From contig JAGLWJ010000120.1 in the NCBI GenBank assembly GCA_023133475.1, forward strand, positions 1 through 41,265: a stretch of DNA of 41,265 bases, in the 5' to 3' direction. Made by a program: the position numbers and the translations under genes. This DNA comes from Phycisphaerae bacterium. Its GTDB lineage: Bacteria > Planctomycetota > Phycisphaerae > UBA1845. Positions 9,637 to 41,265 of this stretch are shown here, piece by piece (positions within the stretch are counted from its first letter, which is position 1; every line of letters begins with the position of its first letter). Below the pieces are notes generated by a model. The model was not told the origin of the DNA. It saw nothing but the letters and a program-made list of their open reading frames with translations, and ran no database searches.

Positions 9637-9683
9637 GAACCTCGTCTTTCGAGTGGCAGACAAACGGCAGCAAAGGAGTGAAG

Positions 9684-15600: not shown

Positions 15601-17108
15601 TCAACTGCGACACGGTGGTGGACGCGGCCGACATCCAACTGGTCAACATGTCCTTGGACACCACTCCCGCCGACCCCGACTGGCTGGAGCGCGCCGACCT
15701 GGACGGTGATAACCTGGTCGAGTTGGAAGACGACCTGCGCCCGGTGCGCAACGCCCTGGGCTACTCCTACGGCGGCGGCACAGCCGACATCCAGGACAAC
15801 ATCTTCACCCTCCACGGCCGAGAGTTGGACGTGTTATCTGACGGCTTGGTCCTGCAGTATCACCGCGCCCGGCATTATATACCCCAACAAGGCCGTTGGC
15901 TACAACGAGACCCCAAGAACTATGTCGACGGCATGAACCTATACGAAGCTTTCGGCGCCAATCCAGTCAGTCTCGTCGATCCGCGCGGCACTGTTATCGA
16001 GGAGTTCTTCAACTGGCGGTACAACGACAAATGGGCCTCAACTGAGGAACTCAGAACAGCCCTCGACTTAGGGATGGACTTCTCCGAAGTTACCGGTGAA
16101 GAGGTGCGAATGATACGCGATGCTGGTGAAGCCCTCTTCGCTCTCACGAATCCCGGACTAGCCGCCAGCATGGGCATAACCGTTGACCCCTTGGATGTAG
16201 TTAGTGAAACAGGCAAGACCACAGCGCGTATGTACAACAACGCCGTGGAAAGCAGCACAGAGCGAATGATAGCCGTTGCAGAAGCTCAGATGGAGGCCGG
16301 AGTTTCCTTGGAAGAGGCTACTTCAGGTGTCTTCCTGTCAGCCGTGGTGATTGGCGACAAGGTTGGTGTGACGCCCGCCCTGGAGGCACGATATGACGTT
16401 GATTTAGCTACGAATGAGCAACTAAGCACCATCGAAGTGGATTTCGGCCTCTTCGTGGCGAGTGAGCGCTTCCGGCGAACTCTTCAAGGTGGTGGCCAAC
16501 TCGGGATCATCATCGGTACAGCCGGGATGCGATCTAATAGCGCCCTGGCGAGACGGGGTAGTTTCACACGGAAGCTGCGAGCTTGGGAACTGCGGAAGGT
16601 GCGAGCATTCCGGCGGGGGCGCGGGAATGTGGGTTCTACTGCCGCACGCGGTGGCGTGAGCGGCGTCGCCCCGAACAATGCGGTCAGTTCACAGTTCAGT
16701 CGTATGCGGACAGCTGCTCGTTATCTGAAGGATGGACGATACTTCGATGGATCGAAGTGGAGGGTGCTCACCCGAGCTAACCGTCGAACGATCCTGTCGG
16801 GTATCGATTTTACGAAGGGCGTCCGCGTTGTGAACTTACCTCGAGGTACTAATCTGATACAGTACGTGCGACGAGGAGGACGGCTTGGCCCGTGGTTTAC
16901 TGTCCCTGGTACACCAGCCAGCAGAGTTGGGTTGTTCGGTGGTGGCCGGAATCTTGTTCCTTTCCGTACTTCCCTGCCAACTCAGGTATTGGAGACTACA
17001 GCTAAGCCGATCATGGATACATGGTCCGTACCAGGGTTTGCAGTCCCAACAGAGGGTGGTGGAGTGCAGTACTATATCTTCCAGAGCTATAAGGTGTTTC
17101 CAAAATGA
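9684..17108 (+). CDS. RHS/YD-repeat polymorphic toxin-like protein with C-terminal TNT/Tse6-like effector tip
   Basis: The ATG at 9684 is chosen because AAGGAG lies 5 nt upstream and the protein then opens with a signal peptide (MKPIRVIRLIVVLLWGVALS, cleavage near SFG-Q). The product is 2474 aa. After a Cys-containing N-terminal region come YDxxGR repeats (from about nt 11000, dense at 12130-15420). The conserved RHS-associated core ends in NLYEAFGANPVSLVDPRG at about 15990. Two P-domain-like pieces (about residues 638-744) and a dockerin-like pair (about 1971-2027) interrupt the RHS part. The last 372 residues are variable-tip sequence. The final segment, with RGTNLIQYVRR, GPWFTVPGTP and a terminal GGGVQY (2458-2463), resembles NAD-degrading TNT/Tse6-type or ADP-ribosyl-transferase-fold toxins. 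The toxin class is an inference. The stop codon overlaps the next gene by 4 bp. Confidence 0.85.
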   Translation: MKPIRVIRLIVVLLWGVALSCPPSFGQITADTLTNNDLVLNARYVGDIDSLRKCTEDVPYGEIYNFAIPTPGYADCGTCTVGAIPLQTYACTGGSLTYAGGSVCFSTGDVSWDRSMIRLYEGFNACGRELDPNDSETYVDLIPLSSFPYPVFSIKVLSTRGLGELELELSYEGSVDFNVEDCVPWLGCHSPCTGQGMNDFHVEGSKTIKVQPTAGSGCGLGGLSEAFHLATPLLAVEVGAAGLEVIAGETADMIGMSFYHRGEQTTEPLYDVRLPGWAETLFIPNQSQFSPILGTPWCGLMIGYRVSSQNVEGPAGTTYVFDVEQNTGLLEHIRPPSIDNNTHPAVQSYQYTGAGEEKRVWLITDHAGFPNWIRLWRYPVSPDDPDPPSPAAPPDKGGVVYRITTSDERRWDLETNYCVEVEDEKYWYVTAVIPLDRKGARYYGRNSAGRITTVADAWNRTMYAFDYAPDASARPVILTNEYHYINEPQPSTAGALQRVAAHTYEEHRITKNLYVEPGKFRRVVYEFNTNGLDHELEAIKTYTDVFNGPQDNGGTEIAVRFEHDVENVAGNMQVTQITLPDPETGSATGMKIKHTYNDEGFRTRTVHEAPNGEQLVVYDVEYEMYYGGSEPVEPEDFCDLTDDFGEWTLRLADVNTSQVGWLDSWSILIEGEGDAFQIQSQLLTSEPQGRLYIPDLDPLGVIDVIYAPPLLENIRRVTVGLCVDHPRPRDLHITLTHRGITEDLSDVLEPTEKRSPTVEQQNDAGGAVATASEPPPAAPRRQCVEYVICSTIGRRETDRVATFYHLPRIIKSSDARGNVTRFDYENGGEDENGDGVKGEVSNNLLSITGPTVYQGPSAPRYAEMLFEYDGTLGVMTRAKTRFADGPDDFLETAYEYDSLRRLTKETDDPQGLAIATAYRYDQANRLVTVTDPAGYKTRYTYDNDGRVLAEYTYLTEDVEGEFYGSTNVYNSNGRLSESYYENEDQTGQPVPGQQATIDAYFYYDRIGRMTKAALLPAGVAQTMDYHLNWQGEVLQAFDTSGRGYRLTYDGRGLVSSEVPLAQGVSPVADLITQYAYDFRGALTSALSPTQVELSQEYDDFGRTTKAIQKPRSQEPQQAEIVSNLLYDPDGNVTRQTTKQGEQVFDDAGVFYDEEGRPFEMRQHIEPDSGGLYDEIARISYDYAGRVVESRRLGDQTPVEIGGGRDAVQLTQGGDAFQQLHYDKAGRLTKRTDSENGQVIFGRDPRGQITTATIRTSERHDITLRVQYDALGRATKTVDGEGYEKRMDYDSRGYMRRMSLQSSRGECLESYANVFDEAGRLVRTAKMAECEQTTPDETRDWVVDYAYDADARLLARGSYNNFSTEPIVTYYTYDPLGRTSRVNTPCGGSSEHQYAPNGLVQRYGVADGLGTRIFNLGYDGHNRVTTLTADGNPQLVTQVQYDGLGRRVASVDPAGKVVQVQYDLGGRVTQLLEDPGGIARRTDFSYDSKGLLTSQTAYTSFLGTPYGTQTTNYVYDSVGRLRYLAYPDSTGTTGPSGQLDMVELKYDDVGRLTQHVDQRGWETSYAYDDRGLLTARQTDTARERFNVMDNFDYDGAGRLTLATRGPPGNPGGIARTERHYNNRGDLLEESQWVGAGQAYTTSYAYDQGGNVIGVLYPDGRQLVQSYNSADQLIDIRDVNEAGLAYEYDGCVLTKRRVSTCDEFGNKYYDRYIQYNDHRWVSRLITNFVSGRGTTTIADFTYTRDNAGNPLAVLAHGTGGFADLDRTFSYDSLHRLTSIQYAGGDTEATILDELGNRIGHADRDGQYTAYALGSAANEYASVGLHPVTYDAAGNLTVDEDGHRFEYDELDRLVEVRAEDGTALAEYTYDALGRRVAFDRPDADSTIRYYYDRISAVEERAEDGELLRSHVLGGQYIDERAYSYDAATGECPQYILGDLYSVAGVGNADGTEVEAWDMSPYGTFTAGTAECQPMDINCDTVVDAADIQLVNMSLDTTPADPDWLERADLDGDNLVELEDDLRPVRNALGYSYGGGTADIQDNIFTLHGRELDVLSDGLVLQYHRARHYIPQQGRWLQRDPKNYVDGMNLYEAFGANPVSLVDPRGTVIEEFFNWRYNDKWASTEELRTALDLGMDFSEVTGEEVRMIRDAGEALFALTNPGLAASMGITVDPLDVVSETGKTTARMYNNAVESSTERMIAVAEAQMEAGVSLEEATSGVFLSAVVIGDKVGVTPALEARYDVDLATNEQLSTIEVDFGLFVASERFRRTLQGGGQLGIIIGTAGMRSNSALARRGSFTRKLRAWELRKVRAFRRGRGNVGSTAARGGVSGVAPNNAVSSQFSRMRTAARYLKDGRYFDGSKWRVLTRANRRTILSGIDFTKGVRVVNLPRGTNLIQYVRRGGRLGPWFTVPGTPASRVGLFGGGRNLVPFRTSLPTQVLETTAKPIMDTWSVPGFAVPTEGGGVQYYIFQSYKVFPK
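15595..15765 (+). other. Dockerin-like calcium-loop pair inserted in the RHS core
   Basis: Within the RHS coding frame, the sequences DINCDTVVDAADIQLVNM and ADLDGDNLVELEDDLRPV form two dockerin-type calcium loops. They lie between the AWDMSPYGTF motif and the LQYHRARHY motif of the RHS core, two elements that are normally almost adjacent. The frame stays open throughout, so this is an in-frame module insertion. Confidence 0.6.
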
Positions 17109-25073: not shown

Positions 25074-26240
25074 ATGATGTCGAATCTCCGTCGATTCCGC
25101 TGGGGCTTGGTTGGTGCACTGGCGCTGCTGTTGGCGCCTGCTTGCAAAGAAAAAGAGACGCCCACAGCCGAGCCTGAAGCAAGCGCACTGGCCGTCGCTG
25201 AGCCAGTGAGAATGGGGGCCGTGTTCCCGCTGACCGGTGACGTCGCTTCCTACGGGCAGAAGGCCAAGCGGGGCATCGAATTGGCTGTGGCTGAGATCAA
25301 CGAGAAAGGCGGCGTTCTCGGCCGGCTGGTCAGCGTCGATTTCCAGGACGACCGCCACGACAGCAAAGAGGCTGTGGGCATCACCACGAAGTTCGCGACG
25401 ATCGACAAGGTGCCGGTGATCTTCGGCTCCGCCGGGAGCAGCGTTTCCCTGGCGATCGCCCCCGTTGCCAATCGGCACAAAGTCGTGCTCATGTCGCCGA
25501 TCTCGTCTTCGGGCAAGCTCTCGACGGAGGGTGGTCCTTACTTCTTCCGCACCGTGCCCACCGACGACCTGCAAGCGGAAGTCCTCGCCGACTGGGTGCG
25601 CGAGTCCGGTGCGAAGCGCGTTGCCATCGTCTACACGAACAACTCATGGGGAAAACCGCTGGCGGATGGATTCGAGCAGAAGTTCACAAGCCTCGGCGGA
25701 ACCGTCTTGCTAAGCGAAGGTGCAGCCGAGGAAACAAGTGATTTTCGCACGATCATCGCCAAGCTGAAGGGCCTTGAGGGCCTCGACGCCGTCGTGTCAC
25801 CGACGTACCCGAAAGAGGGCGGCACGTTTGTCCGGCAGACCAAGGAACTTGGCTTGGCAAAGCCTCTGTTCGGCGGCGACAACTGGGGCTCGCCGGAGTT
25901 CCGCACTATCGCCGGCGATGCGGCCGAAGGCGTCTACTACACGGCCCCATCCGAGATCACGACGCCGCAGTATGAACAGTTCGCAAAACGGTACGAGGCC
26001 AAGTACGGCGAGCAACCGGACGTTTTCGGGGCCTACTCGTACGATGCCGCCAACGCCGTCTTCAAGGCGATCGAGAGTTGCAAGGCCACGGAGGGTGAGA
26101 AAATCCGGAAGGCCTTGCTGAAAACGTCGTTCCCGGGCGTCTCGGGACAGATTGCGTTCAAGCCAAACGGCGACGTGAAGTCCGAGGCGTTTGCTAGATT
26201 CACGATCCACAACGGCGAGGCGAAGCCCGCTCAGCCATAG
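25074..26240 (+). CDS. Branched-chain amino acid/amide-type ABC transporter substrate-binding lipoprotein
   Basis: The 388-aa product has a signal peptide ending in a lipobox (LLLAPAC-K), so it should be a membrane-anchored periplasmic binding protein. The mature part shows the Peripla_BP_6/LivJ pattern: RMGAVFPLTGDVASYGQKAK near the start, GIELAVAEINEKGGVLGR, a GSAGSS loop, ISSSGKL, YFFRTVPTD and FGAYSYDAANAV. Its length is normal for the family. GGAGG is 7 nt upstream of the ATG. The ligand cannot be read from the sequence; family members bind Leu/Ile/Val, other amino acids, urea or amides. It opens the operon, and the modified peptide or a breakdown product is a possible ligand here (inference). 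Confidence 0.9.
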   Translation: MMSNLRRFRWGLVGALALLLAPACKEKETPTAEPEASALAVAEPVRMGAVFPLTGDVASYGQKAKRGIELAVAEINEKGGVLGRLVSVDFQDDRHDSKEAVGITTKFATIDKVPVIFGSAGSSVSLAIAPVANRHKVVLMSPISSSGKLSTEGGPYFFRTVPTDDLQAEVLADWVRESGAKRVAIVYTNNSWGKPLADGFEQKFTSLGGTVLLSEGAAEETSDFRTIIAKLKGLEGLDAVVSPTYPKEGGTFVRQTKELGLAKPLFGGDNWGSPEFRTIAGDAAEGVYYTAPSEITTPQYEQFAKRYEAKYGEQPDVFGAYSYDAANAVFKAIESCKATEGEKIRKALLKTSFPGVSGQIAFKPNGDVKSEAFARFTIHNGEAKPAQP

Positions 26241-26252
26241 AAAAGGAAACGA

Positions 26253-26453
26253 ATGCTCAATCAAGAATTCCGTGCGCCAGCAGAACAGGAACCGAACTGT
26301 TCAACGACGACTGAGCCGCAAGAGACCTCTGCCGAGGAGTGCCGGCGACGAATGCTCCAGTGGCCCAATCCGGTCGAGTACGTCAACGACATGTACGGCT
26401 GTCACCCCGGCGGAGGGGACACCGAATACTTCCGCACGGTGTTCGGGAAATGA
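26253..26453 (+). CDS. Small peptide, candidate RiPP precursor or modified-peptide substrate
   Basis: The 66-aa ORF has AAGGA about 6 nt before the ATG, begins 12 nt after the binding-protein gene, and overlaps the radical SAM/SPASM gene by 4 bp (ATGA). The N-terminal half is acidic and Gln/Thr-rich (leader-like). The C-terminal half is distinctive: WPNPVEYVNDMYGCHPGGG followed by DTEYFRTVFGK, with Tyr, Cys, His and three Gly. Three Cys are present (about positions 16, 30 and 50). It has no signal peptide and no membrane segment. I do not recognise the family. Placement and size fit a precursor for the adjacent radical SAM enzymes; a small regulatory or chaperone protein is the alternative. 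Confidence 0.6.
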   Translation: MLNQEFRAPAEQEPNCSTTTEPQETSAEECRRRMLQWPNPVEYVNDMYGCHPGGGDTEYFRTVFGK

Positions 26454-27565
26454 GCCTGACCGCTCAGGACGAAGAGCTATTCGAGCGCTGGCGCGAACGG
26501 ATGGAGGCGCTTATCCGCGAGCACCCGCTCCAGCTCATCAGTTGGGAATCCACCCGCCGGTGTAATCTGCGATGTTTACATTGCGGTTCGCCAGCCGAGG
26601 ATGTTGACCTCGACGCAGAGCTAACCGCAGACGAGGTCGTCGGCGCCTTCGAGCAAATCGCCGCCGACTTCGACATGAGCCAGTTCCGCCACGTCAACGT
26701 CACCGGCGGCGAACCATTCGTTCGGCGGGATCTGCTGGACATTCTACGACGCATCAGCCGCAACCCACACTTTCGCAACACCGACATCCAGACCAATGGC
26801 ATTATCCTGGCCGATCATCCCGAACTGTTCGACGAGCTGGATCGTTACGGAGTGACCGGCCTCGGCATCAGCATCGACGGCCTGGAGGCGACGCACGACG
26901 CGTTCCGCCGTATCCCCGGCGGCTTCGCCAAGTCCTTCGAGGCGGCCCGACTCTCGGTCGAGCACGGCTACGTGACGACCGTCTCCGTCGTCGCCCACGC
27001 GAAGAATATCGACGAGATTCCCGCCCTGTTCGAGCTGTCCCGTCGCGAGATACGCCCACGGGTTTTCCGCATCATGACGATCGACCCCATCGGCCGGATG
27101 GACTTCGACTCGGAGTACATGCTCTCGCCCGATCAGGTCCGGCAGGTCATCGACTTCCTGAAGACCGAGTACGGGCGAGGCTGCGCCACCTACGCTGACC
27201 AGAGTACGACGATGGTCGAACTGGGCTGCGGCGGCTGGCTAGGCCGCGACCTGGAGGGCCTCGTCCGCCCCTTCATCTGGCACTGCATCGCCGGCATCAA
27301 TAACCTCGGCATTCTCTACGACGGCAAGCTCGCTTCATGCAGCAACATCTCACGCGAGTTTATCGAGGGTGACCTGCGTACGGAACGGATCAAGGATGTC
27401 TGGCAGAACCGCTACGAGCGGTATCGTGACTCCGATTGGAAAAGAACCGGCCCGTGCGTGACTTGTGGCGAATGGGCCTATTGCTACGGTGGGCCGCTGC
27501 ATGGTCGTTTACCGGACCACACTGATTTCCGCTGTTTATGGAACGACACCGATGGATTTGCCTGA
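26450..27565 (+). CDS. Radical SAM/SPASM-domain enzyme, probable peptide maturase
   Basis: The start is the ATG at 26450 inside the ATGA overlap with the peptide gene; a longer upstream extension exists but reads through the peptide in another frame. The product is 371 aa. The radical SAM CX3CX2C motif is Cys38, Cys42 and Cys45 (TRRCNLRCLHCG), followed by a GGEPF motif and a TNGI strand. The C-terminal part is a SPASM-type cluster domain: CIAGINN...DGKLASC, then a CVTCGEWAYC motif and a last Cys in FRCLWND. SPASM enzymes such as AlbA, PqqE and MftC modify ribosomally made peptides. Its coupling to the 66-aa peptide supports that peptide as substrate. The reaction (thioether, C-C link, decarboxylation or other) cannot be predicted. 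Confidence 0.88.
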   Translation: MSLTAQDEELFERWRERMEALIREHPLQLISWESTRRCNLRCLHCGSPAEDVDLDAELTADEVVGAFEQIAADFDMSQFRHVNVTGGEPFVRRDLLDILRRISRNPHFRNTDIQTNGIILADHPELFDELDRYGVTGLGISIDGLEATHDAFRRIPGGFAKSFEAARLSVEHGYVTTVSVVAHAKNIDEIPALFELSRREIRPRVFRIMTIDPIGRMDFDSEYMLSPDQVRQVIDFLKTEYGRGCATYADQSTTMVELGCGGWLGRDLEGLVRPFIWHCIAGINNLGILYDGKLASCSNISREFIEGDLRTERIKDVWQNRYERYRDSDWKRTGPCVTCGEWAYCYGGPLHGRLPDHTDFRCLWNDTDGFA

Positions 27566-29492
27566 AGCAATTGACAACGACGCGGCCCAAGGTACGCCAA
27601 CGCCCCTTCCGCCTACGTCAAACATCGCGTACGCCTTTTTGCAGAGCCTTGCCAAGAAGAGGGATGCTGGTCGCGGGACCGTGGGATGGTGGATCGTCTT
27701 TCACTTCCTTCTGTTCCCAAGGTTGCCCTTCGAATACTGGCTGTATTGTGTCGACACTACATCCGGCACTCCACGCGATATCGACTCCACCGGTCCCAGC
27801 ACAACCGACCCGCCGTTCACAAAGACCTCTTTGTTGAGGCGGCTTTCTGGGCTGTTGCGGCACAAACGAGTGCCAGCCATTCTATCCTTTCTCTCTGTCG
27901 TTCTCGTGCTTGTTGTCTACTTCCTTGCCAAGCGCTCCTTACCTCGACTCCTACCGGATGGCTTCACTTCTGCGCTATGTTGGATATCTTTCTCCATCTT
28001 CTGCAACACCGTCACTCTGCTTCTCATTTCGCTATTCGCCTTTCCTTCTGATGCCGCCGCGAGCATGCTTCGGCGCGACCTTCGACACACCCTAAACGAG
28101 AACTCCCTCAACCTATCGAATAGCTTGTCGAATAAGCTCCTTGAGCACGTGCTCTGGTCGCACGCGAAAACGGGCACGCTGCTCAAGGAACTCGCCACCC
28201 GCGATCCAGGAAAACGAGGGAAGTGGTTCCTCGTGAATTTCCTCGCTCATGTTGCTGAGGAACGCATTGATGTCCAGAAGAAACCGGCTGGCCAGATATA
28301 TGTCCTCGGCACGGGTAATAATGTCTGGCCGGTGTGCAGATACTCGCGCTTCCTCGCGACGAACATGGATCACGCGGATAACAGCATTCTCTGGCTAGTC
28401 GATCCAAACGACTTCTTCGGCCTTCTCCTTCCTGAATTCGTGCGATACTTTGTAGCCTGCCATGCGATTTCAGCTTACGGCGAGATGCGGCCAAGTGCGT
28501 CGTACACTAATCGCACCAAGGCTTCGGTCCAGTCCGTCTTCGAATGCTATAAACACTCTCCTCAGACGATTAGCGTTGACAAAGCGGCTTGGGCAACGCA
28601 CTATGACTTCATCGTGCCCGCACCTATTCGTGACAAAAACGTTGATACCGATCCGGAGGGCAGCACGAACAGTACGTATGAACGGCGATGGACTGAGTTT
28701 CATCACTACATTCTTCCGACGATTGTGCGATGCGGACAGGTGTTGCGCAAGCACTTCGGCACGACAGTTACACATGAGGAAGTCAGCAAGTCCTTTAGAT
28801 TCCTTTCACATAACTTCCTAGACCATATCTTCCCTCACTTGATGGCGTTCAAGAAGACCCACGGCATTCGTGAGAAATGCCGAGTCCTCTTCATGGGTTT
28901 CGATATGCCAAGTGATCACACGTTATGGCAGTCGTGGCTAAAGGAGCGGGTACTCCAGTATTGGCAGGCTAATCTCCACCGGTGGGACACAGAGACGAGG
29001 ACTGCTGCCAAGGACAGCGATGTTATACGCGAGGCCCTTGGGATGTTTGTGGATAGTTGCGGCGGGGAGGATGTGTTCGTGGCGCGCGGTTATAGCAGGT
29101 CAGAAGAGGGTGGGCGGATGCACATGGACATTGGCTGGTATGATGGGGAGTTCCTTGTACATGCGCGGCCGGCGGAGAACGCGCACAGCGCGATTGGGCT
29201 CGCCGGCGACAATGAGGATGTGTGTGTCAACGCGGGGTTGCAGGCTGGCGAGGCAAAACCCAATTCACAGTGGCGCGAAATCAGGTGGATCTATTGCTGC
29301 CCCAACGGGACGGCGGCGAAGGGCCCTCAGAACGAGTGGAAGGACGACTTGAATCCGACGCTTAAATTGGCGGTGACGATCCTAGACGAGGCCAAGGCGG
29401 GACCCAACATTAAGTCCGGCATCTTCAGTGAGACGGTCTTGAGCTGTGCGGCAGAGGTCCTTGACAGCACAGATGCGACATCATCGCCATGA
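27552..29492 (+). CDS. Membrane protein of unknown family in the radical SAM/Liv operon
   Basis: ATG 27552 is chosen because it lies 14 bp inside the upstream gene end and gives a clean N-terminus; the product is 646 aa. Three hydrophobic segments are visible: about residues 43-66 (VGWWIVFHFLLFP), 107-126 (VPAILSFLSVVLVLVVYF) and 138-164 (ALCWISFSIFCNTVTLLLIS). They are followed by a soluble domain of about 480 residues, with motifs such as IYVLGTGNNVWPVCRYSRFL and CRVLFMGFDMPSDHTLW. I recognise no known family. Codon use looks less GC-rich than in the transporter genes (visual impression). It ends in a 4-bp ATGA overlap with the next radical SAM gene, so it belongs to the operon. A membrane-bound processing or sensing role is possible but unproven. 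Confidence 0.7.
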   Translation: MDLPEAIDNDAAQGTPTPLPPTSNIAYAFLQSLAKKRDAGRGTVGWWIVFHFLLFPRLPFEYWLYCVDTTSGTPRDIDSTGPSTTDPPFTKTSLLRRLSGLLRHKRVPAILSFLSVVLVLVVYFLAKRSLPRLLPDGFTSALCWISFSIFCNTVTLLLISLFAFPSDAAASMLRRDLRHTLNENSLNLSNSLSNKLLEHVLWSHAKTGTLLKELATRDPGKRGKWFLVNFLAHVAEERIDVQKKPAGQIYVLGTGNNVWPVCRYSRFLATNMDHADNSILWLVDPNDFFGLLLPEFVRYFVACHAISAYGEMRPSASYTNRTKASVQSVFECYKHSPQTISVDKAAWATHYDFIVPAPIRDKNVDTDPEGSTNSTYERRWTEFHHYILPTIVRCGQVLRKHFGTTVTHEEVSKSFRFLSHNFLDHIFPHLMAFKKTHGIREKCRVLFMGFDMPSDHTLWQSWLKERVLQYWQANLHRWDTETRTAAKDSDVIREALGMFVDSCGGEDVFVARGYSRSEEGGRMHMDIGWYDGEFLVHARPAENAHSAIGLAGDNEDVCVNAGLQAGEAKPNSQWREIRWIYCCPNGTAAKGPQNEWKDDLNPTLKLAVTILDEAKAGPNIKSGIFSETVLSCAAEVLDSTDATSSP

Positions 29493-30940
29493 CAACACCA
29501 ATAGCGAACTTCCACGGTCATTATAGACCAGAACCGATTGCGCTGGAATCCGTCGTCAGCATGCTCATGCGTGATGCATGGCACAGTACGTGGGGCAGTC
29601 ACAACGAAGTCGAGATGTGGCGACTGGACGGCCGGCACGGCAGCCAGCGGTTCTCTTTGCTTTCAGCAATGACGAGTGAGTGGGACGAGACGCTAAGACG
29701 TGCGCTGATGGCTAAGCGGCGGGGAAACACAGTAGTGATTGGGGGGTTTCACGTCTGTGGTACGCAAGCGGTTGGCCTGCGCGCTCCATGCGATTACGTC
29801 GTTCTCGGTGAAGGCGAGGAGGGCATGAGGGAAGTGCTGCGGCGCGAGGAAGCCAGGGAGCCATTGCAGGCCAGGAAGCACGGAGACGCCTGTACGGCGC
29901 CGATCATAGTCAAGGCGGCGGTGACGGCTGACATCGACCAGTTGCCATGGCCTCAGCGCGTGCGAAGATTCCTGGAAGCATACAAGATCTCGGATCTCAT
30001 GTGGCCCGCACCGAGCGATCAACAGAACGTTGCGATGATGTTGGCGTCGCGGGGTTGTGTGCATGATTGCGATTTCTGCGCGTCGCGGACAGTCTGGGGA
30101 AAAGGTGTGCGGCTGCGGTCAGCCGACAACGTCGTGGCCGAGCTGGAAGACCTGAAACGCCGGTTTGGAACGAACACAATCGTCTTCATCGACCAGTCAC
30201 TGGGACAAGCGAAGACGTGGACGCTTGAACTGTGCAAGGTGATTGAGAACGCTCGCCTGGGCATGAGCTGGTACCATCAGAGCAACTTGACGATCAGTCG
30301 TGACGTACTTCAGGCCATGGCCGCGGCGGGTTGCACCAAGATTGGGTTTGGCCTGGAGGGGATATCGCCGCGTTCGGTCGAGCGATTCAAGCCACACAAC
30401 CCGCATGACTTCGATTTCGTCAATGACCTGTTCGACTACTGCAACTCGCTGGGGCTGTTTGTCAAGGTCTACCTGATGCTCGGCTCGCCCTGGGAGACCG
30501 AACGGGACATTGCGGAGTACCGCCGGAACATCAGCCACATCCGGGCGAACGAGATCAAAATCTCGTACTTCACACCCTTTCCGGGCACACGGGCCTGGGA
30601 CCAATACAGCGATCAACTCGTCACGCAGGATTGGGCACAGTTCGATACGGTCGCCATGCCGGTGGTACACAACCCGCGCATCTCGGTCGAGCAATACCAC
30701 GCGATCCGGGCCGGTTTATTCCAGACTTTCTACGGCTCGCAAACGTATTATGACGTCACGGCCCAGATGTTGAGGCGTTTTCCGCACTACGTGCAGAGCT
30801 ACCGCGAGTTCGCCGACTATCTGTGTGCCTTCAACATGATTTCCGGCAACGAATCGTGGCTTGACCTGCTTGGCCTTGATCGCGAATCCGTGAGCCTTGC
30901 AGACCCGGCCGGCGTCGTGAGGGCAGCATCGTGCAGTTAA
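29489..30940 (+). CDS. B12-binding-type radical SAM enzyme
   Basis: The 483-aa product starts in an ATGA overlap with the membrane protein gene. The N-terminal region has the Rossmann-like pattern VVIGGFHVCG...CDYVVLGEGEEGM seen in cobalamin-binding radical SAM proteins. The CX3CX2C motif is Cys190, Cys194 and Cys197 (ASRGCVHDCDFCASRTVWG). Further family signs are FIDQSLG, a GFGLEGIS strand with the pattern of a TIM-barrel edge, and VYLMLGSPWETERDI. The classical DxHxxG cobalamin motif is not visible and the cobalamin-binding part looks short, so cofactor use is uncertain. Relatives methylate unactivated carbons or make ring closures. In this context it may act on the same peptide as the SPASM enzyme. 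Confidence 0.85.
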   Translation: MTTPIANFHGHYRPEPIALESVVSMLMRDAWHSTWGSHNEVEMWRLDGRHGSQRFSLLSAMTSEWDETLRRALMAKRRGNTVVIGGFHVCGTQAVGLRAPCDYVVLGEGEEGMREVLRREEAREPLQARKHGDACTAPIIVKAAVTADIDQLPWPQRVRRFLEAYKISDLMWPAPSDQQNVAMMLASRGCVHDCDFCASRTVWGKGVRLRSADNVVAELEDLKRRFGTNTIVFIDQSLGQAKTWTLELCKVIENARLGMSWYHQSNLTISRDVLQAMAAAGCTKIGFGLEGISPRSVERFKPHNPHDFDFVNDLFDYCNSLGLFVKVYLMLGSPWETERDIAEYRRNISHIRANEIKISYFTPFPGTRAWDQYSDQLVTQDWAQFDTVAMPVVHNPRISVEQYHAIRAGLFQTFYGSQTYYDVTAQMLRRFPHYVQSYREFADYLCAFNMISGNESWLDLLGLDRESVSLADPAGVVRAASCS

Positions 30941-31803
30941 CCCTGAACGTGCTGGTCGCCGCGAGTACGCTCGCGCTAATGGCTGTGGGCTTCGGCCTGA
31001 TCTTCAGCACGACCCGTTTCTTCCACTTTGCGCACGCCGTTGTATACACGGGCGCGGCGTATCTGACGTACTGCGGGAGTGTCCAACTCGGTCTTCCGCT
31101 CGTTATCGCTGTCTTACTGGGTGTTGCTGGAGGCGTTTGCCTTGGCGGGCTGATGGAGGTCGGGCTGTACCGCCCCATGCGAGGGCGGTCGGCTTCGGCG
31201 TTGACGCTGCTGATCGCGTCGCTTGGGACGTACGTCGTGCTTCAGAACCTGGTCTCCATGACCTGGGGCGACGATGTGAGAATGCTCCAGTCATCTACGG
31301 TGCGCGAAGGCATCGAAATCCTGGGTGGGCGGATCACGCCAACTTCGGTGCTGGCGATCGCCGTCTGCGTTGCGCTCCTGGCGGTGGTGACGCTCGTGCT
31401 GCGGAGAACTGGGCTCGGCCGGGCAATGCGGGCGGTCGCGGACGACGCCGAACTCGCTCGCATCCGCGGCATCCGGGCCGACCGGGTCATCCTCGCGACA
31501 TTCGCGATTGGCTCCGCCTTGGCGGCGGTCGCCGGTATCCTGGTGGCGCTCGACGTGAACATGCGGCCGACGATGGGTATGAACGCCCTGATGCTCGCGA
31601 TCGTCGCGGTCATCATTGGCGGCGTAAGCAGCATCGGCGGAATCGCCCTGGGATCGTTGTTCCTGGCGGCTGCCCAGCAAGTCGCCATCTGGCAACTTGG
31701 TTCACAGTGGCAAGACGCCGTCGCATTCGCCATCCTGCTGGTTTTCCTGCTCGCTAGGCCGCAGGGCTTGTTCGGCAAGCCGTTGCGGAAGGTGGCCGTG
31801 TGA
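30931..31803 (+). CDS. livH: Branched-chain-type ABC transporter permease LivH
   Basis: The GTG at 30931 overlaps the preceding gene by 10 bp. The 290-aa protein has the repeated hydrophobic helices and loop motifs of LivH: ALMAVGFGLIFSTTRFFHFAHA near the start, GLYRPMRGRSAS, SLGTYVVLQN, GLGRAMRAVADD and the terminal FLLARPQGLFG. It forms half of the inner-membrane channel with LivM. Family membership is clear; substrate is not. Confidence 0.9.
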   Translation: MQLTLNVLVAASTLALMAVGFGLIFSTTRFFHFAHAVVYTGAAYLTYCGSVQLGLPLVIAVLLGVAGGVCLGGLMEVGLYRPMRGRSASALTLLIASLGTYVVLQNLVSMTWGDDVRMLQSSTVREGIEILGGRITPTSVLAIAVCVALLAVVTLVLRRTGLGRAMRAVADDAELARIRGIRADRVILATFAIGSALAAVAGILVALDVNMRPTMGMNALMLAIVAVIIGGVSSIGGIALGSLFLAAAQQVAIWQLGSQWQDAVAFAILLVFLLARPQGLFGKPLRKVAV

Positions 31804-31849
31804 GGCAGGGCCAGTTGGTGGCATCAACTTAACAAGGAGGATGGACCAA

Positions 31850-33052
31850 ATGGGTGACATCGACTCAACAAGGGAGCCACTCGGCTTCTTCGACGTGAAA
31901 ATGTTCGACGATGCGAGCAGAGAGGTCGAGAAACTGCGTCAACAAAGACGTCGGCCATGGCAACTGCTCCAGTGTGTGCCAAATCCAGAGCTCAAGAACT
32001 CGCTTGATTGCGTGCTGGAGTTCTTGATCGGTGATCGTCTTGTGGAAGGGATCGGCAAGGGGGGGTGGGGACACTCCCACAGGCTCTACGAGACGGACCT
32101 CTATGGCGCTAAGGCCGAAGCGGAGGCGCGCGATAGCGATAGCGTGATGACAACGATGATAGTAATTCAATCCCTCCAGGCTGCCAACCACATCTTGCGT
32201 CGGAGCACCACACGACGCGCCAAAGAGGAATGGCCGAAACGCTGGGAACGTATCAAGTTGGACGCCACCGAGTATACGCGTTCACGGTATGACTCGGTGA
32301 CTGGCGCCGCCCGTCTCCGTATGGACCATACAGGAACGCGGAGGCTAGCCCCGTCCTATCGTCACGCCGGTTGCTTCCTTCAGCTCTCACGCTACGATTG
32401 TGGGCACGTCGATGCGGCCAAAACCGCCCAGTATCTCATCGAGCAATTCGAAAACGTGAATTGGGAGAAAGAGACGGTGGCGACATCTGTCGCGACGATA
32501 TCCGCACTGGACTGCATACTTGAGGACGAGAACCTGGTTCGGTTGGTGGACGGCAAGAAAGTCGCCTCCCTTCGCGCGACCGCGGAACATGAACTCGTGA
32601 AGAAGTACTGCGATTCACTGGACGGATGGAAGTCAGGCATCCATGAAGAGCTGGGCCGACAAGTGTACACTCTCTTCGTTCTTGCCGATCTCGCGCACTT
32701 GCTTCGTGATGATAAGTCGGTGTTGACCGAGAGGATGCTTGGTGCCTACCGGGCCACGTTTCAGGGACGATGGCGCGGCACGTCAGGCAGCGGTATCCCG
32801 CGCCGATTGGTCTCAGAGACGAAGGACGCAACATCAGCCGAGGACGTATCGCTTTCTTGTCTCGCGGTCGCAGCCCTGATCGGGAAGCATCTTGTCCGGG
32901 AACTATCAGATGAAGAAAAAAGCGTGTTCGAAGAGATTCTGACGGCTCTGGTGCGGACCATCAACAGGGATAATGAGTGGACAGGTCGAGCATACGCATT
33001 GGCAGTCAGCTACTTCATGAGGAGCGTGTGCGTCCTCCTCGACGCCAAATAG
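31850..33052 (+). CDS. Unknown 400-aa helical protein inserted between livH and livM
   Basis: ATG 31850 is chosen over ATG 31841 because the AAGGAGG at 31834-31840 gives a 9-nt spacing to it but none to the other. The 400-aa product has no signal peptide or membrane segments and appears strongly helical. Segments such as DSVMTTMIVIQSLQAANHIL, APSYRHAGCFLQLSRYDCG, ATSVATISALDCIL and RQVYTLFVLADLAHLL loosely recall alpha/alpha-toroid proteins (terpene-cyclase or lanthionine-cyclase-type folds). That fold idea is weak and based on helix pattern only. No catalytic motif is recognised. Its strong ribosome binding site and position inside the operon argue that it is a real and functionally linked gene. 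Confidence 0.7.
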   Translation: MGDIDSTREPLGFFDVKMFDDASREVEKLRQQRRRPWQLLQCVPNPELKNSLDCVLEFLIGDRLVEGIGKGGWGHSHRLYETDLYGAKAEAEARDSDSVMTTMIVIQSLQAANHILRRSTTRRAKEEWPKRWERIKLDATEYTRSRYDSVTGAARLRMDHTGTRRLAPSYRHAGCFLQLSRYDCGHVDAAKTAQYLIEQFENVNWEKETVATSVATISALDCILEDENLVRLVDGKKVASLRATAEHELVKKYCDSLDGWKSGIHEELGRQVYTLFVLADLAHLLRDDKSVLTERMLGAYRATFQGRWRGTSGSGIPRRLVSETKDATSAEDVSLSCLAVAALIGKHLVRELSDEEKSVFEEILTALVRTINRDNEWTGRAYALAVSYFMRSVCVLLDAK

Positions 33053-33062
33053 AAGGCCTGCT

Positions 33063-33935
33063 ATGGAATACGCCCTGCACATTCTCGTTTTCGTCGGGAT
33101 CTACATCATCCTGGCGGCGTCGCTCGATCTTCTGGCCGGCCACACGGGGCTGCTTTCGATCGCACACGCCGCGTTCTACGGTCTCGGTGCGTACACGTCT
33201 GCGCTTCTGACCGTCAAAGCGGGGGCGCCGTTCCTGCTGGGCGTTCTCGGGGGTATGTTCGTCGCGGCGCTGCTGTCGCTTCTCGTGTCGCTGCCGTCGC
33301 TGAGACTCATCGACGACTACTTCGTCATAGCAACGTTTGCGTTCCAGATGATCCTGTTCAGTATCTTCAACAACTGGAACGAACTGACTGGCGGGCCGAC
33401 TGGCATCCCCGGCATCCCCGAACCCTCGGTGATCGGCTGGGAGGTTACGTCCCATCTCGAATTCGTGGTGCTTGCGGGCGTATTCGCGATTCTCGCCTTT
33501 TTGGTCGTCTGGCGGCTGACTACCGGACCCTTTGGCCGGGCGCTGCACGCTATCCGTGAGGACGAGGTGCTTGCGAAGTCAATCGGCAAGAATGCGCTGC
33601 GTTTCAAGATCACGGTTTTCGCGATCAGCAGCGCGCTGGCCGCGTCAGCCGGTAGCCTGTACGCCCACTACATCACCTATATTGACCCGACCAGCTTCAC
33701 CGTGATGGAGTCGATCCTGGTCATCTCGATGGTGATCATCGGCGGCGCAGGGAGCTTGTGGGGGCCGTTGCTCGGAGCATTTGTGCTGGTGACGCTGCCC
33801 GAAACGCTGCGGTTCATCGGCCTGCCAAGCGCGGTCGCGGCGAATCTGCGGCAGATCATCTACGGGAGCCTTTTGGTCGTTATGATGATGGTTCGCCCAC
33901 AGGGGCTGGTGGGTCGCTATGCCCTTGGCCGGTGA
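33063..33935 (+). CDS. livM: Branched-chain-type ABC transporter permease LivM
   Basis: The gene starts 10 nt after the unknown 400-aa gene and encodes 290 aa. LivM motifs are clear: SLDLLAGHTGLLSIAHAAFYG, GPTGIPGIP, GRALHAIREDEVLAKSIG, the GGAGSLWGPLLGAF loop and terminal MVRPQGLVG. It pairs with LivH in the membrane. Confidence 0.92.
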   Translation: MEYALHILVFVGIYIILAASLDLLAGHTGLLSIAHAAFYGLGAYTSALLTVKAGAPFLLGVLGGMFVAALLSLLVSLPSLRLIDDYFVIATFAFQMILFSIFNNWNELTGGPTGIPGIPEPSVIGWEVTSHLEFVVLAGVFAILAFLVVWRLTTGPFGRALHAIREDEVLAKSIGKNALRFKITVFAISSALAASAGSLYAHYITYIDPTSFTVMESILVISMVIIGGAGSLWGPLLGAFVLVTLPETLRFIGLPSAVAANLRQIIYGSLLVVMMMVRPQGLVGRYALGR

Positions 33936-33991
33936 CGGATTCTACCATGCGATCTACGCTTGGCGGGCTACGCTAGGCGAGAACGAGGGAC

Positions 33992-34741
33992 ATGGAAACG
34001 CTTTGCTGCGAGAGTCTGAGCAAGTCCTTTGACGGCGTGCAGGCGCTTGAGAAGGTCGGCGTGTGCTTTCCAACCTCAGGGATCGCGGCGGTGATTGGGC
34101 CGAATGGCGCCGGGAAAACAACACTCATCAACGTGCTAACTGGATTCCTCCGACCGGAGGCGGGGCGCTGCCTCTTTGGCAATCGTGAGATCACTCGGCT
34201 GGCACCGCACAGAATTGCTCGGCTGGGGATCGCCCGGACATTCCAGGATTTGCGGCTTATCCAGCAGGTGTCGGTTCTGGACAACGTGATGCTCGCCCGG
34301 CCGAACCAGCGGGGGGAGAGGCTGTTGCCGGCCCTACTGCGCTTCGGTGTGGCAGAGGAGGAGACGCGGAACCGTGAAGAGGCGATGCGAACTCTGCGAT
34401 TCGTCGGGCTGGAGGAGAAGGCCTCGGACCCCGCTGGTGAACTGTCCTACGGCCAGCAGAAGCTGCTGACGCTTGCGTGCTGTCTGGCAACCGAGGCTCG
34501 CGTTTTATTGCTTGACGAGCCTGTAGCCGGCGTCCACCCGGAAATGGTGGAGCAGATTCTTGGGCTGCTCCGGCGTCTTCGGGACGAGGGGAAGCTGATC
34601 GTGTTCATCGAGCACGATATTGCGGCTGTGCGGCAAGTGGCTGACGTCGTCATTGTGATGGACAATGGCCAAGTGATCGCCCAAGGACCCCCGAGCGAAG
34701 TGCTGGAGCGCCCGGAGATCATGGAGGCATACGTTGGATGA
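33992..34741 (+). CDS. livG: ABC transporter ATP-binding protein LivG
   Basis: The 249-aa ATPase has Walker A GPNGAGKTT (residues 36-44), the LivG-typical ARTFQDLRLI, ABC signature LSYGQQ (about 151-156, with Y in the usual LivG position), Walker B VLLLDEPVAG and the H-loop in FIEHD. All catalytic elements are intact. It overlaps livF by 8 bp. Confidence 0.93.
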   Translation: METLCCESLSKSFDGVQALEKVGVCFPTSGIAAVIGPNGAGKTTLINVLTGFLRPEAGRCLFGNREITRLAPHRIARLGIARTFQDLRLIQQVSVLDNVMLARPNQRGERLLPALLRFGVAEEETRNREEAMRTLRFVGLEEKASDPAGELSYGQQKLLTLACCLATEARVLLLDEPVAGVHPEMVEQILGLLRRLRDEGKLIVFIEHDIAAVRQVADVVIVMDNGQVIAQGPPSEVLERPEIMEAYVG

Positions 34742-35456
34742 CGGGAACGCCAAGCTCCTGAACGTTGACGGCCTGGTCACCGGCTACGGCAAGAAGCAGG
34801 TCGTCAACGGCGTGGGCCTTGACGTGGAGCCGGGGGAGATTGTGGCTCTGATCGGACACAACGGCGCCGGCAAGTCCACGCTGCTCAAGGCCATCTTTGG
34901 CCTATTGCCGGTCTGGGAGGGGAGCGTGTTTCTGGACGGCAAACAACTGGAGTCCCCCACGCCGCGCGAGCTGCTCCGCTTCGGTGTGGCATTCGTTCCG
35001 CAGGGAAATCGCGTCTTCACCGACCTTTCGGTTCGCGAGAACCTTGAAATGGGCGGTGTGACGTTGCGCGACAAGCGCGAGTTGAATGAAGGGATCGAGC
35101 GGGTCTTCACGCTCTTTCCGGCCATCAAGCCTCGTCTTCGGCAGCGGGCTGGCACGCTGTCCGGCGGCGAGAAGCAGATGCTTGCCCTGGCTAACGCGCT
35201 GGTGCTGAACCCCCGTGTTCTGCTGCTCGACGAGCCGTCGCTCGGCCTTGCTCCACCGCTGGTATCCGAGGCGCTAGGCCGCATTCGGGAAATCGCAGAA
35301 GACAAGCGCGTGGCCGTCCTGATCGTGGAGCAGAAGGTCCGTGAGGTTCTCAGGATTGCCCAACGCGTGTACGTCCTTCGCAACGGCCTCGTGTCCTTCT
35401 CGGGGCTCTCTGAATCACTTACAGATGAGGCGACGCTCCGCGAGGTGTACCTGTAG
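34734..35456 (+). CDS. livF: ABC transporter ATP-binding protein LivF
   Basis: The 240-aa ATPase has Walker A GHNGAGKST (about 41-49), FVPQGNRVFTDLSVREN, signature LSGGEKQM (about 142-149), Walker B VLLLDEPSLGLAPPL and a VEQKV switch region. The only upstream start in frame is TTG 34734, inside livG (8-bp overlap), so an unusual TTG start with translational coupling is likely. The gene ends the operon; no clear terminator follows. Confidence 0.9.
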   Translation: MDDGNAKLLNVDGLVTGYGKKQVVNGVGLDVEPGEIVALIGHNGAGKSTLLKAIFGLLPVWEGSVFLDGKQLESPTPRELLRFGVAFVPQGNRVFTDLSVRENLEMGGVTLRDKRELNEGIERVFTLFPAIKPRLRQRAGTLSGGEKQMLALANALVLNPRVLLLDEPSLGLAPPLVSEALGRIREIAEDKRVAVLIVEQKVREVLRIAQRVYVLRNGLVSFSGLSESLTDEATLREVYL

Positions 35457-36738: not shown

Positions 36739-37302
36739 TCACTTTAATGGGCCTTTCTGGGGCAACAACGCGTCGTCGATCCCGCTGTCGAACTTGGCGT
36801 ACTCAGCATGGAAGGCGAACCGATCCAGCCCGCGATAATGGTCGTGGATTGGGTCGGCTGCGTGTCCCATAGCCACCTTGGACACCTCCCGACGTATCTC
36901 ACTGACGTGGGCCCGCGTCCGGTGATAGTGCCGAAGCCAATGCCAGCGTAGCCTCGACCAGGGTTTGCCCGTCCTGGGGTTGGTCTCCACGAGCACGCCT
37001 GCTTCCAGGGCGTATCGCTTCAGCCGATCAAGTGTCTTGTTCTCGGCTATCTGGGAGCCCACCTCGTTGAGAAACACCCAGTCCGAGGGTTGCCCGAGTC
37101 CCATCGAAGCGATAACCCGCGCCAGCCGGTCCGAAATGTGGATCGGACGGCGTGCCGCCCGGCTCTTGGGAATCCAGAGACGCTCGGCTGTGAGGCAACG
37201 CCGCTTCAGCTCCGGCCGGACCCGCTGCGGATCGGGCTTCTTGATGTCCAGGATGATCTCGCGATCCTGCAAGTTGATATCGCCTACCTGCTGGATGGCC
37301 AA
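36739..37302 (-). pseudogene. Tyrosine recombinase/integrase catalytic C-terminal part, 5'-truncated
   Basis: The 187-codon leftward frame begins abruptly at VGDINLQDREI and continues RLWIPKSRAARRPIHISDRL, then the catalytic HxxR (RWHWLRHYHRT), GH (MGHAAD) and active-site Tyr (IHDHY). The box-I Arg and the core-binding domain are absent. The reading frame is cut at about 37302, exactly where an ISAs1 tail begins on the other strand. An N-terminal integrase half lies at 39475-40103 in the same orientation, so the gene may have been split by insertions. Confidence 0.7.
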
Positions 37303-40106: not shown

Positions 40107-40454
40107 TCACCTCCTTTGCCGGGAGATGCGCGGCTTGCGGCGGAACTCGATACGACCACTCTTGACCCCATTGAGCCAACGAACCAGCTCGGGCACCCGG
40201 TGGTACCACCGGTTCCCGATCCGAAAACACGGGATCTGAGTGTAGTGCCTTTCCTGGCACCAGTCCACAACCGTTTTGGGCGACTTTCCCAAAGTGGCGG
40301 CGAGGTCGGCGGAAGTGCAGGGGTCGGACAGTTGACCGAGCGCGACGTGGGCGCCGCCCTCAGCATCACCGCCCTGGGCAGGCTGGCGATCGCTGACAGC
40401 ATCGCAGACGGTCGGGCGAACGGAATCGGCTGGCTCGTGCTTGTCTGGCCTCAT
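40107..40454 (-). CDS. HTH DNA-binding protein (excisionase/helix_turn_helix_17-like)
   Basis: ATG 40454 is chosen because it overlaps the primase stop codon (ATGA); the product is 115 aa. The C-terminal half contains a winged HTH: CTSADLAATLGKSPKTVVDW, then IPCFRIGNRWYHRVPELVRW. The N-terminal part looks disordered. The integrase gene starts 3 nt after its stop. It probably controls or directs excision of the element, as such proteins usually do next to integrases. Confidence 0.7.
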   Translation of the reverse strand: MRPDKHEPADSVRPTVCDAVSDRQPAQGGDAEGGAHVALGQLSDPCTSADLAATLGKSPKTVVDWCQERHYTQIPCFRIGNRWYHRVPELVRWLNGVKSGRIEFRRKPRISRQRR

Positions 40455-41265
40455 CGTGTCGGTTCCTTCGAACGGTCGCTGCCACACAACTCCTTCCGGC
40501 GCAAAGGGCACGCAGGATCGCAGTACGCGGCAACCTTGGGGTCCCCGCATCCACAACTTCGGTAGTCCTTGGAATAGGCCCCGGTTACCTGGGCGAGGAT
40601 CTCATCCTCGGCGATGACGCGCTTCTCTCCTGCGGGCCGGTTCTTCGCCGCCCAGGCCGCGAGCGCGGCGACAGCGATGTCCTCCGGCAGGCCCGCTTTC
40701 TTCAGCTGGACCGCAAGGCGGAAGCAGGTCACGCGCTGGTACTCGCTCACGCCTTCGGTGAGCATTCGCTGTGCGCACGGTGGAAGGCCAAAAACGGAAC
40801 GCGTCTTGTCCGACGGTCGTGGTGGTACCCCCCCTCGTGGCAGCCCAGCTGCTCGGCCGTTTGGCTGGTCCAGCTCGTTGATCTCGATGATTTCGTCGAG
40901 CCGCTCCTCCTTCACTCGAACGACTTCCTCGAGGAACTGCCACTGGTCTGCCGATGAAGTCAGGCCGTGACGCGGATCCAGGAACACGGTTCGGCCCTTG
41001 GTAACCAACGCGCCGAACAGCGGCGCATAGATGTAGTTGCCGTACGTGGTTCGTGTGTCGAGCCGGTCGTGTTTGGGAAACACCTCCGTGTTGGGCTGGC
41101 CGATCTCCTCCAGAATGTGCCACACAACAAGCCGTGCCTTCGCGGCGGACACGCCAGCCTCATCGAGAAACATCCACACGTCGCCCTTATCGGCAAGCAC
41201 TTCGAGAATCCAAATGTCCTTTTCATCTATGTCAGGCCGGGCAGGTAGGTCGATTGGCGTTCGAC
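40451..41265 (-). CDS. Archaeo-eukaryotic-type (AEP) primase-like replication protein (5' partial)
   Basis: The frame is open to the window edge, so the N-terminus is missing; about 271 residues are present. GDVWMFLDEAGVSAAKARLV followed by the VFPKHDRL...YGNYIYAPLF segment matches the AEP fold of plasmid and TOTE-type primases. The C-terminal part has RVTCFRLAVQLKKAGLPEDI, AALAAWAAKNRP and a Cys set (CGCGDPKVAAYCDPACPLRR), like the metal-binding PriCT-type tail. It is first in a leftward operon with an HTH protein and an integrase, so it probably served replication of an integrated element. Confidence 0.65.
   Translation of the reverse strand, partial: RTPIDLPARPDIDEKDIWILEVLADKGDVWMFLDEAGVSAAKARLVVWHILEEIGQPNTEVFPKHDRLDTRTTYGNYIYAPLFGALVTKGRTVFLDPRHGLTSSADQWQFLEEVVRVKEERLDEIIEINELDQPNGRAAGLPRGGVPPRPSDKTRSVFGLPPCAQRMLTEGVSEYQRVTCFRLAVQLKKAGLPEDIAVAALAAWAAKNRPAGEKRVIAEDEILAQVTGAYSKDYRSCGCGDPKVAAYCDPACPLRRKELCGSDRSKEPTR

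Follow-up and report, generated by a model that had tools for sequence, protein, structure and literature searches.

The question raised by positions 25,074 to 35,456 of a 41,265-nt stretch of Phycisphaerae DNA (called the window here, by which the whole stretch is meant) is what joins the genes of a Liv-type importer to those of a short peptide and two radical SAM enzymes. Ten co-directional genes had been described here in a first-pass annotation, and their place, strand and order were all borne out by the open reading frames and by Pfam/NCBIfam searches:

25074..26240, + strand: LivJ-type substrate-binding lipoprotein, 388 aa, first gene (Peripla_BP_6, E 2.5e-64)
26253..26453, + strand: 66-aa peptide, candidate substrate of the SPASM enzyme, found in 4/4 loci
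26450..27565, + strand: radical SAM/SPASM enzyme, 371 aa (Pfam Radical_SAM 4e-22, SPASM 2e-7)
27552..29492, + strand: membrane-anchored protein (TM646), 646 aa, with N-terminal TM segments, of no known family
29489..30940, + strand: B12-binding-type radical SAM enzyme, 483 aa (Radical_SAM 3e-15, B12-binding 5e-5)
30931..31803, + strand: LivH permease, 290 aa (BPD_transp_2 1.8e-38)
31850..33052, + strand: 400-aa soluble protein of no family, in the variable slot between LivH and LivM
33063..33935, + strand: LivM permease, 290 aa (BPD_transp_2 1.9e-48)
33992..34741, + strand: LivG ATPase, 249 aa (ABC_tran 2e-28; nearest NCBIfam is LivG)
34734..35456, + strand: LivF ATPase, 240 aa, whose TTG start overlaps livG (ABC_tran 1.3e-33)

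The intergenic distances range from -14 to +56 nt, and the ATGA by which the peptide stop was said to be coupled to the SPASM start is indeed present as an overlap at 26450-26453. All five subunits of a Liv/HAAT importer, that is, a binding protein, two permeases and two ATPases, were recognised by Pfam; the P-loop and signature motifs are readable in the LivG and LivF translations, and LivJ carries a lipobox-like LLAPAC with Cys24. The peptide and the 646-aa and 400-aa proteins gave nothing significant in Pfam/NCBIfam, and the 646-aa protein has no match in PADLOC or PDB either. No Rfam family was matched in the window or around the start of the operon, scans for promoters and terminators did not exceed what shuffled sequences gave, and flanking repeats of a mobile element were looked for and none were found.

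Recurrence and spread of the unit

With the SPASM protein as query, 84,980 species genomes were scanned at a sensitivity reaching close relatives only, and two orthologous loci came out: L011, in a MAG of Planctomycetaceae (best-segment SPASM identity 77%), and L010, in a MAG that is filed under Armatimonadetes (about 68-69% identical to the SPASM enzyme of the window). A further locus, L046, whose SPASM enzyme is about 60-62% identical to that of the window, was added by a class-wide profile search. With the Liv genes given by their last letters, the order in the window is J-peptide-SPASM-TM646-B12-H-400aa-M-G-F, in L010 J-peptide-SPASM-TM364-B12-H-M-G-F, in L011 J-peptide-SPASM-233aa-TM338-H-M-hydrolase-G-F, and in L046 HTH-J-peptide-SPASM-TM575-B12-H-methyltransferase-M, where the contig ends. 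All four SPASM orthologues (at least about 60% identical) thus stand in the order LivJ-peptide-SPASM with LivH and LivM downstream, and the peptide and SPASM genes overlap in the three other loci by 4, 4 and 23 nt. From these gene orders the core of the unit is taken to be J-peptide-SPASM-TM-H-M(-G-F). As judged by such comparisons, the gene set of the operon is not a chance mixture, since the LivJ-peptide-SPASM block recurs in three independent loci; the sample is four loci, all in draft assemblies, of which L010 and L011 are named as MAGs, and it is too small for covariation tests.

The co-occurrence of the five extra genes with livJHMGF, which the first-pass annotation proposed to look for in other genomes, holds for the peptide and the SPASM enzyme (4/4 loci) and fails in part for the B12 enzyme (3/4) and the 400-aa protein (1/4); a membrane protein is always there, but of two kinds without detectable relation. 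The concern that SPASM genes of this sort might exist elsewhere without Liv genes and peptide proved justified for homologues of 33-36% identity only, all four orthologues having both. Such distant homologues (about 32-36% identity over the whole set: L007, L008/L020, L009/L021 and L047, with L007 and L047 on short contigs) lack the Liv genes and the peptide, so that the association holds at the level of orthologues and not in the wider SPASM family. One of these, L021, has at 3208-9318 several B12-type radical SAM enzymes beside its SPASM enzyme, in a cluster unrelated to the Liv unit that also includes a small protein, PqqD-like by eye.

The genes around this core vary. The 646-aa protein, with hydrophobic segments at its N-terminus, is weakly homologous to the 575-aa protein in the same slot of L046 (0/2000 shuffles reach the score), and the membrane proteins of L010 and L011 are related to each other; a homology of the 646-aa protein to the latter two, suspected by eye, was not borne out by shuffle tests. 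Neither it nor the 400-aa protein has a homologue in 254 other genomes of the phylum. AF2 predictions made without alignment were poor for the 646-aa protein (mean pLDDT 38) and of low confidence for the 400-aa protein (mean pLDDT 42), which came out all-helical. The B12-type enzyme, whose B12-binding Pfam score of 5e-5 lies below the cut-off, has orthologues of 51-53% identity in L010 and L046 and none in the genome of L011. The slot between LivH and LivM is filled in L046 by a SAM methyltransferase; the slot genes differ in every locus, and the accessory genes are mostly of lower G+C.

The unit is rare. SPASM orthologues turned up in 2 of the 114 genomes belonging to the window's order, 3 of 283 sampled genomes of its class and 1 of 291 genomes of the phylum of L010, and among 392 sampled genomes of the window's phylum the sole one was the window's own, the counts from sampled sets being lower bounds. 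Plasmid and viral collections contained distant SPASM homologues only. The SPASM enzyme of L010 (68%) is closer to that of the window than is the enzyme of L046 (60%), although L046 belongs to the window's own class, which indicates horizontal transfer if L010 is not misbinned. The Liv importer, the peptide and the SPASM enzyme form one conserved unit that has apparently spread horizontally.

Various other genes lie near these operons. In the window a 2491-aa RHS-repeat protein with a C-terminal Ntox46 toxin domain is encoded at 9633-17108, and downstream of the operon are a weak phage integrase fragment (36739-37302, minus strand) and a fragment resembling the primase of TOTE conflict systems (40451-41200, minus strand). 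The LivJ gene of L046 has an XRE-type HTH gene (9339-9539) 30 nt upstream and, at a distance of about 1.8 kb on the same side, the gene of an RHS-repeat protein that carries a pretoxin HINT domain (1584-7796). Directly downstream of the Liv operon of L011 is a helicase gene (9885-13451) like HmaA of the Hma defence system, followed by a protein that by eye resembles a DNA methylase. The longest plus-strand frame adjoining the operon of L010 (8959-12300) scores as very rich in PPR repeats, which is unusual for a bacterium.

The peptide, the SPASM enzyme and the binding protein

The four peptides are about 61-72 aa long and share 19 invariant residues, the start Met included. Their conserved C-terminal part, RMLxW(P/S)NPVE(Y/F)VN(D/N)MYxxHP...EYFxxxF, corresponds to residues 33-64 in the window. 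In comparison with L011, dN is 0.13 and dS 0.81 over the C-terminal 35 codons, and dN is 0.65 over the N-terminal part, all from small counts; by this codon comparison the C-terminal 35 or so residues are under purifying selection, and the N-terminus is much freer. In L010 a Ser takes the place of Cys 50, and a Cys thioether is therefore not common to the peptides. The MYG of the peptide was considered as a splicease-type XYG motif, but the idea was dropped because L010 has MYS. The peptide matches no known family in sequence, nor any PqqD/RRE or carrier domain. With a profile built from three peptides, nothing convincing came up in 391 other genomes of the phylum; a peptide-like match in genome G079 lies inside a frame read as carB and was taken as chance, and a weak 15-aa match was seen on contig 298 of genome G000 (E 0.09).

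In the SPASM enzyme, which is 57-74% identical among the loci, the CxxxCxxC radical-cluster motif (C38, C42 and C45) is invariant in all four loci, as are seven cysteines of the SPASM region (260, 279, 297, 336, 339, 345 and 362). The Pfam SPASM match is above the cut-off; of the cysteines looked for as ligands of two auxiliary clusters, the eighth, expected 3-4 residues past C345, is a Pro, with an invariant His351 nearby. AlbA, too, has seven (PMC5682303). The best NCBIfam match is TIGR04133 with 214.7 bits over residues 15-353, the curated cut-off of 425 not being reached, and the PDB profile matches include MoaA, SkfB and PqqE.

LivJ and the SPASM enzyme are the better conserved partners (58-70% and 57-74% identity across the loci, as against 42-63% for LivH and 51-52% for the B12 enzyme), which suggests that the ligand of LivJ is fixed. 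Ser122, Ser144/145 and Asp269 of LivJ (window numbering) are kept in all four loci, and they align with the ligand-binding Ser/Thr and acidic residues of amino-acid-binding homologues in the PDB, positions that we take to be the sites binding the amino acid head group. As LivJ keeps these positions, a large peptide is unlikely as its ligand and something of amino acid size fits better. At E<=1e-10, L010 and L011 each come from a genome with a single LivJ, and the genome of the window has two, the second at 28%; as this LivJ is the sole one in two of the three genomes examined, the importer is taken to be a dedicated one.

Explanations of the unit

The explanation to which we give most weight, while holding it doubtful, is that of a self-contained, apparently horizontally moving unit of peptide maturation and uptake. 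The peptide is the likely substrate of the enzyme, because the peptide and SPASM genes overlap and because there is precedent in PQQ, mycofactocin and the SPASM RiPPs (PMC5682303); a short precursor-type ORF beside a maturase is kept as an overlapping pair in all four loci. The enzyme would modify the invariant C-terminal segment, by a C-C or C-O crosslink or a backbone change at an invariant Trp, Glu, Tyr or His, which is likelier than a Cys thioether as Cys is not invariant in this segment. The conservation of the segment suggests one fixed product, such as a cofactor, metallophore or signal, and not a diversified antibiotic. Tailoring of the product may fall to the B12 radical SAM enzyme in the loci that have it and to slot genes like the methyltransferase, and genes of tailoring type do differ among the loci. 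LivJHMGF would take up either a product of amino acid size or an amino acid that partners it, with the membrane protein perhaps monitoring the uptake. Import of the product by the Liv system is a weaker proposition than the role of the peptide as SPASM substrate. The tie between LivJ and a peptide product is a genetic one only. Against this maturation-and-uptake reading stands the lack of any RRE/PqqD domain, protease or exporter in the operon by Pfam/NCBIfam, which leaves recognition, release and export without a counterpart there; many radical SAM RiPP enzymes do act without an RRE (PMC5682303). The peptide also counts against it by having its core-like end conserved and its leader-like end variable. 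In most RiPPs the pattern is the reverse.

Import of a partner amino acid would fit almost as well, and so would a scheme in which LivJHMGF imports an amino-acid-like molecule, this molecule or LivJ itself is the substrate of the SPASM and B12 enzymes, and the peptide, in place of being a precursor, serves the SPASM enzyme as a small, structured partner, carrier or adaptor. Taken by itself this last scheme is unlikely. It would account for the amino-acid-type binding positions kept in LivJ, for the conserved part of the peptide, which resembles a small fixed domain more than a diversified core, and for the placing of the SPASM gene after LivJ and the peptide, comparable to that of the TIGR04133 gene, which in two examples directly follows a lipoprotein gene; however, the peptide matches neither PqqD/RRE nor carrier domains, and SPASM enzymes adjoining a small ORF are usually maturases of peptides or proteins (general knowledge; PMC5682303). 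An improbable alternative is a conflict or defence island, in which a peptide signal would be produced or detected by the conserved module, with the variable membrane and slot proteins acting as effectors. The rare, cross-phylum spread, the accessory genes of mostly lower G+C that differ per locus, the HmaA gene near L011 and the RHS toxin-type genes in the window and L046 would suit it, and pairs of SPASM enzymes and FxSxx peptides in VMAP ternary conflict systems set a precedent (PMC7159879). These toxin and defence neighbours are, however, not conserved across the loci, and PADLOC, run on the SPASM enzyme, TM646, the B12 enzyme and the 400-aa protein, reported only generic radical SAM similarity (viperins, PDC-M51A). 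We also know of no defence system that includes a full LivHMGF importer, which we count against the island. That an ordinary importer of branched-chain amino acids has merely picked up unrelated genes is very improbable: LivJHMGF is intact and looks normal in family searches, but the LivJ-peptide-SPASM block stands in four genomes, two of the three genomes examined have no other LivJ, and 112 of the 114 genomes of the same order have no SPASM orthologue.

Known systems and what the unit would add

Several described systems share parts of this unit. TIGR04133 enzymes (radical SAM/SPASM with an associated putative lipoprotein) also have a lipoprotein gene upstream, but two annotated TIGR04133 loci list no small peptide and no Liv genes. 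In the PQQ (PqqA/PqqE/PqqD) and mycofactocin (MftA/MftC/MftB) pathways, too, a SPASM enzyme goes with a precursor peptide that is short and conserved (general knowledge; PMC5682303), whereas the operon of the window is without a PqqD/RRE partner or maturation protease and has a Liv importer and a B12 enzyme in addition. The FxSxx/SPASM pairs of VMAP systems (PMC7159879) resemble it in joining a small peptide and a SPASM enzyme in a variable accessory setting; the unit described here has a Liv importer and lacks VMAP, MoxR and AP-ATPase parts and an FxSxx C-terminus. From other Liv/HAAT importers with five intact subunits it differs in that its genes are interleaved with the peptide, SPASM and variable genes and in that its LivJ is the sole one in two of three genomes. 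The earlier statement that no described system has this gene set agrees with our searches, which found none of this composition among protein families or open papers, and the unit appears to be an undescribed system of the SPASM/peptide kind with a putative function.

It may, as a possibility that leans towards the unlikely, represent a new class in which a small molecule (cofactor, metallophore or signal) is made from the invariant C-terminus of a peptide of about 66 aa by SPASM and B12 enzymes and is taken back up or sensed through a Liv-type importer of its own, whose genes lie in the same horizontally moving operon. Few cofactors and signals are known that SPASM enzymes make from peptides, and to our knowledge none of them comes with its own importer of the amino acid class. 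The unit consists of defined, testable parts: a single peptide whose motif is fixed, a radical SAM enzyme or two, and a binding protein that should reveal the ligand.
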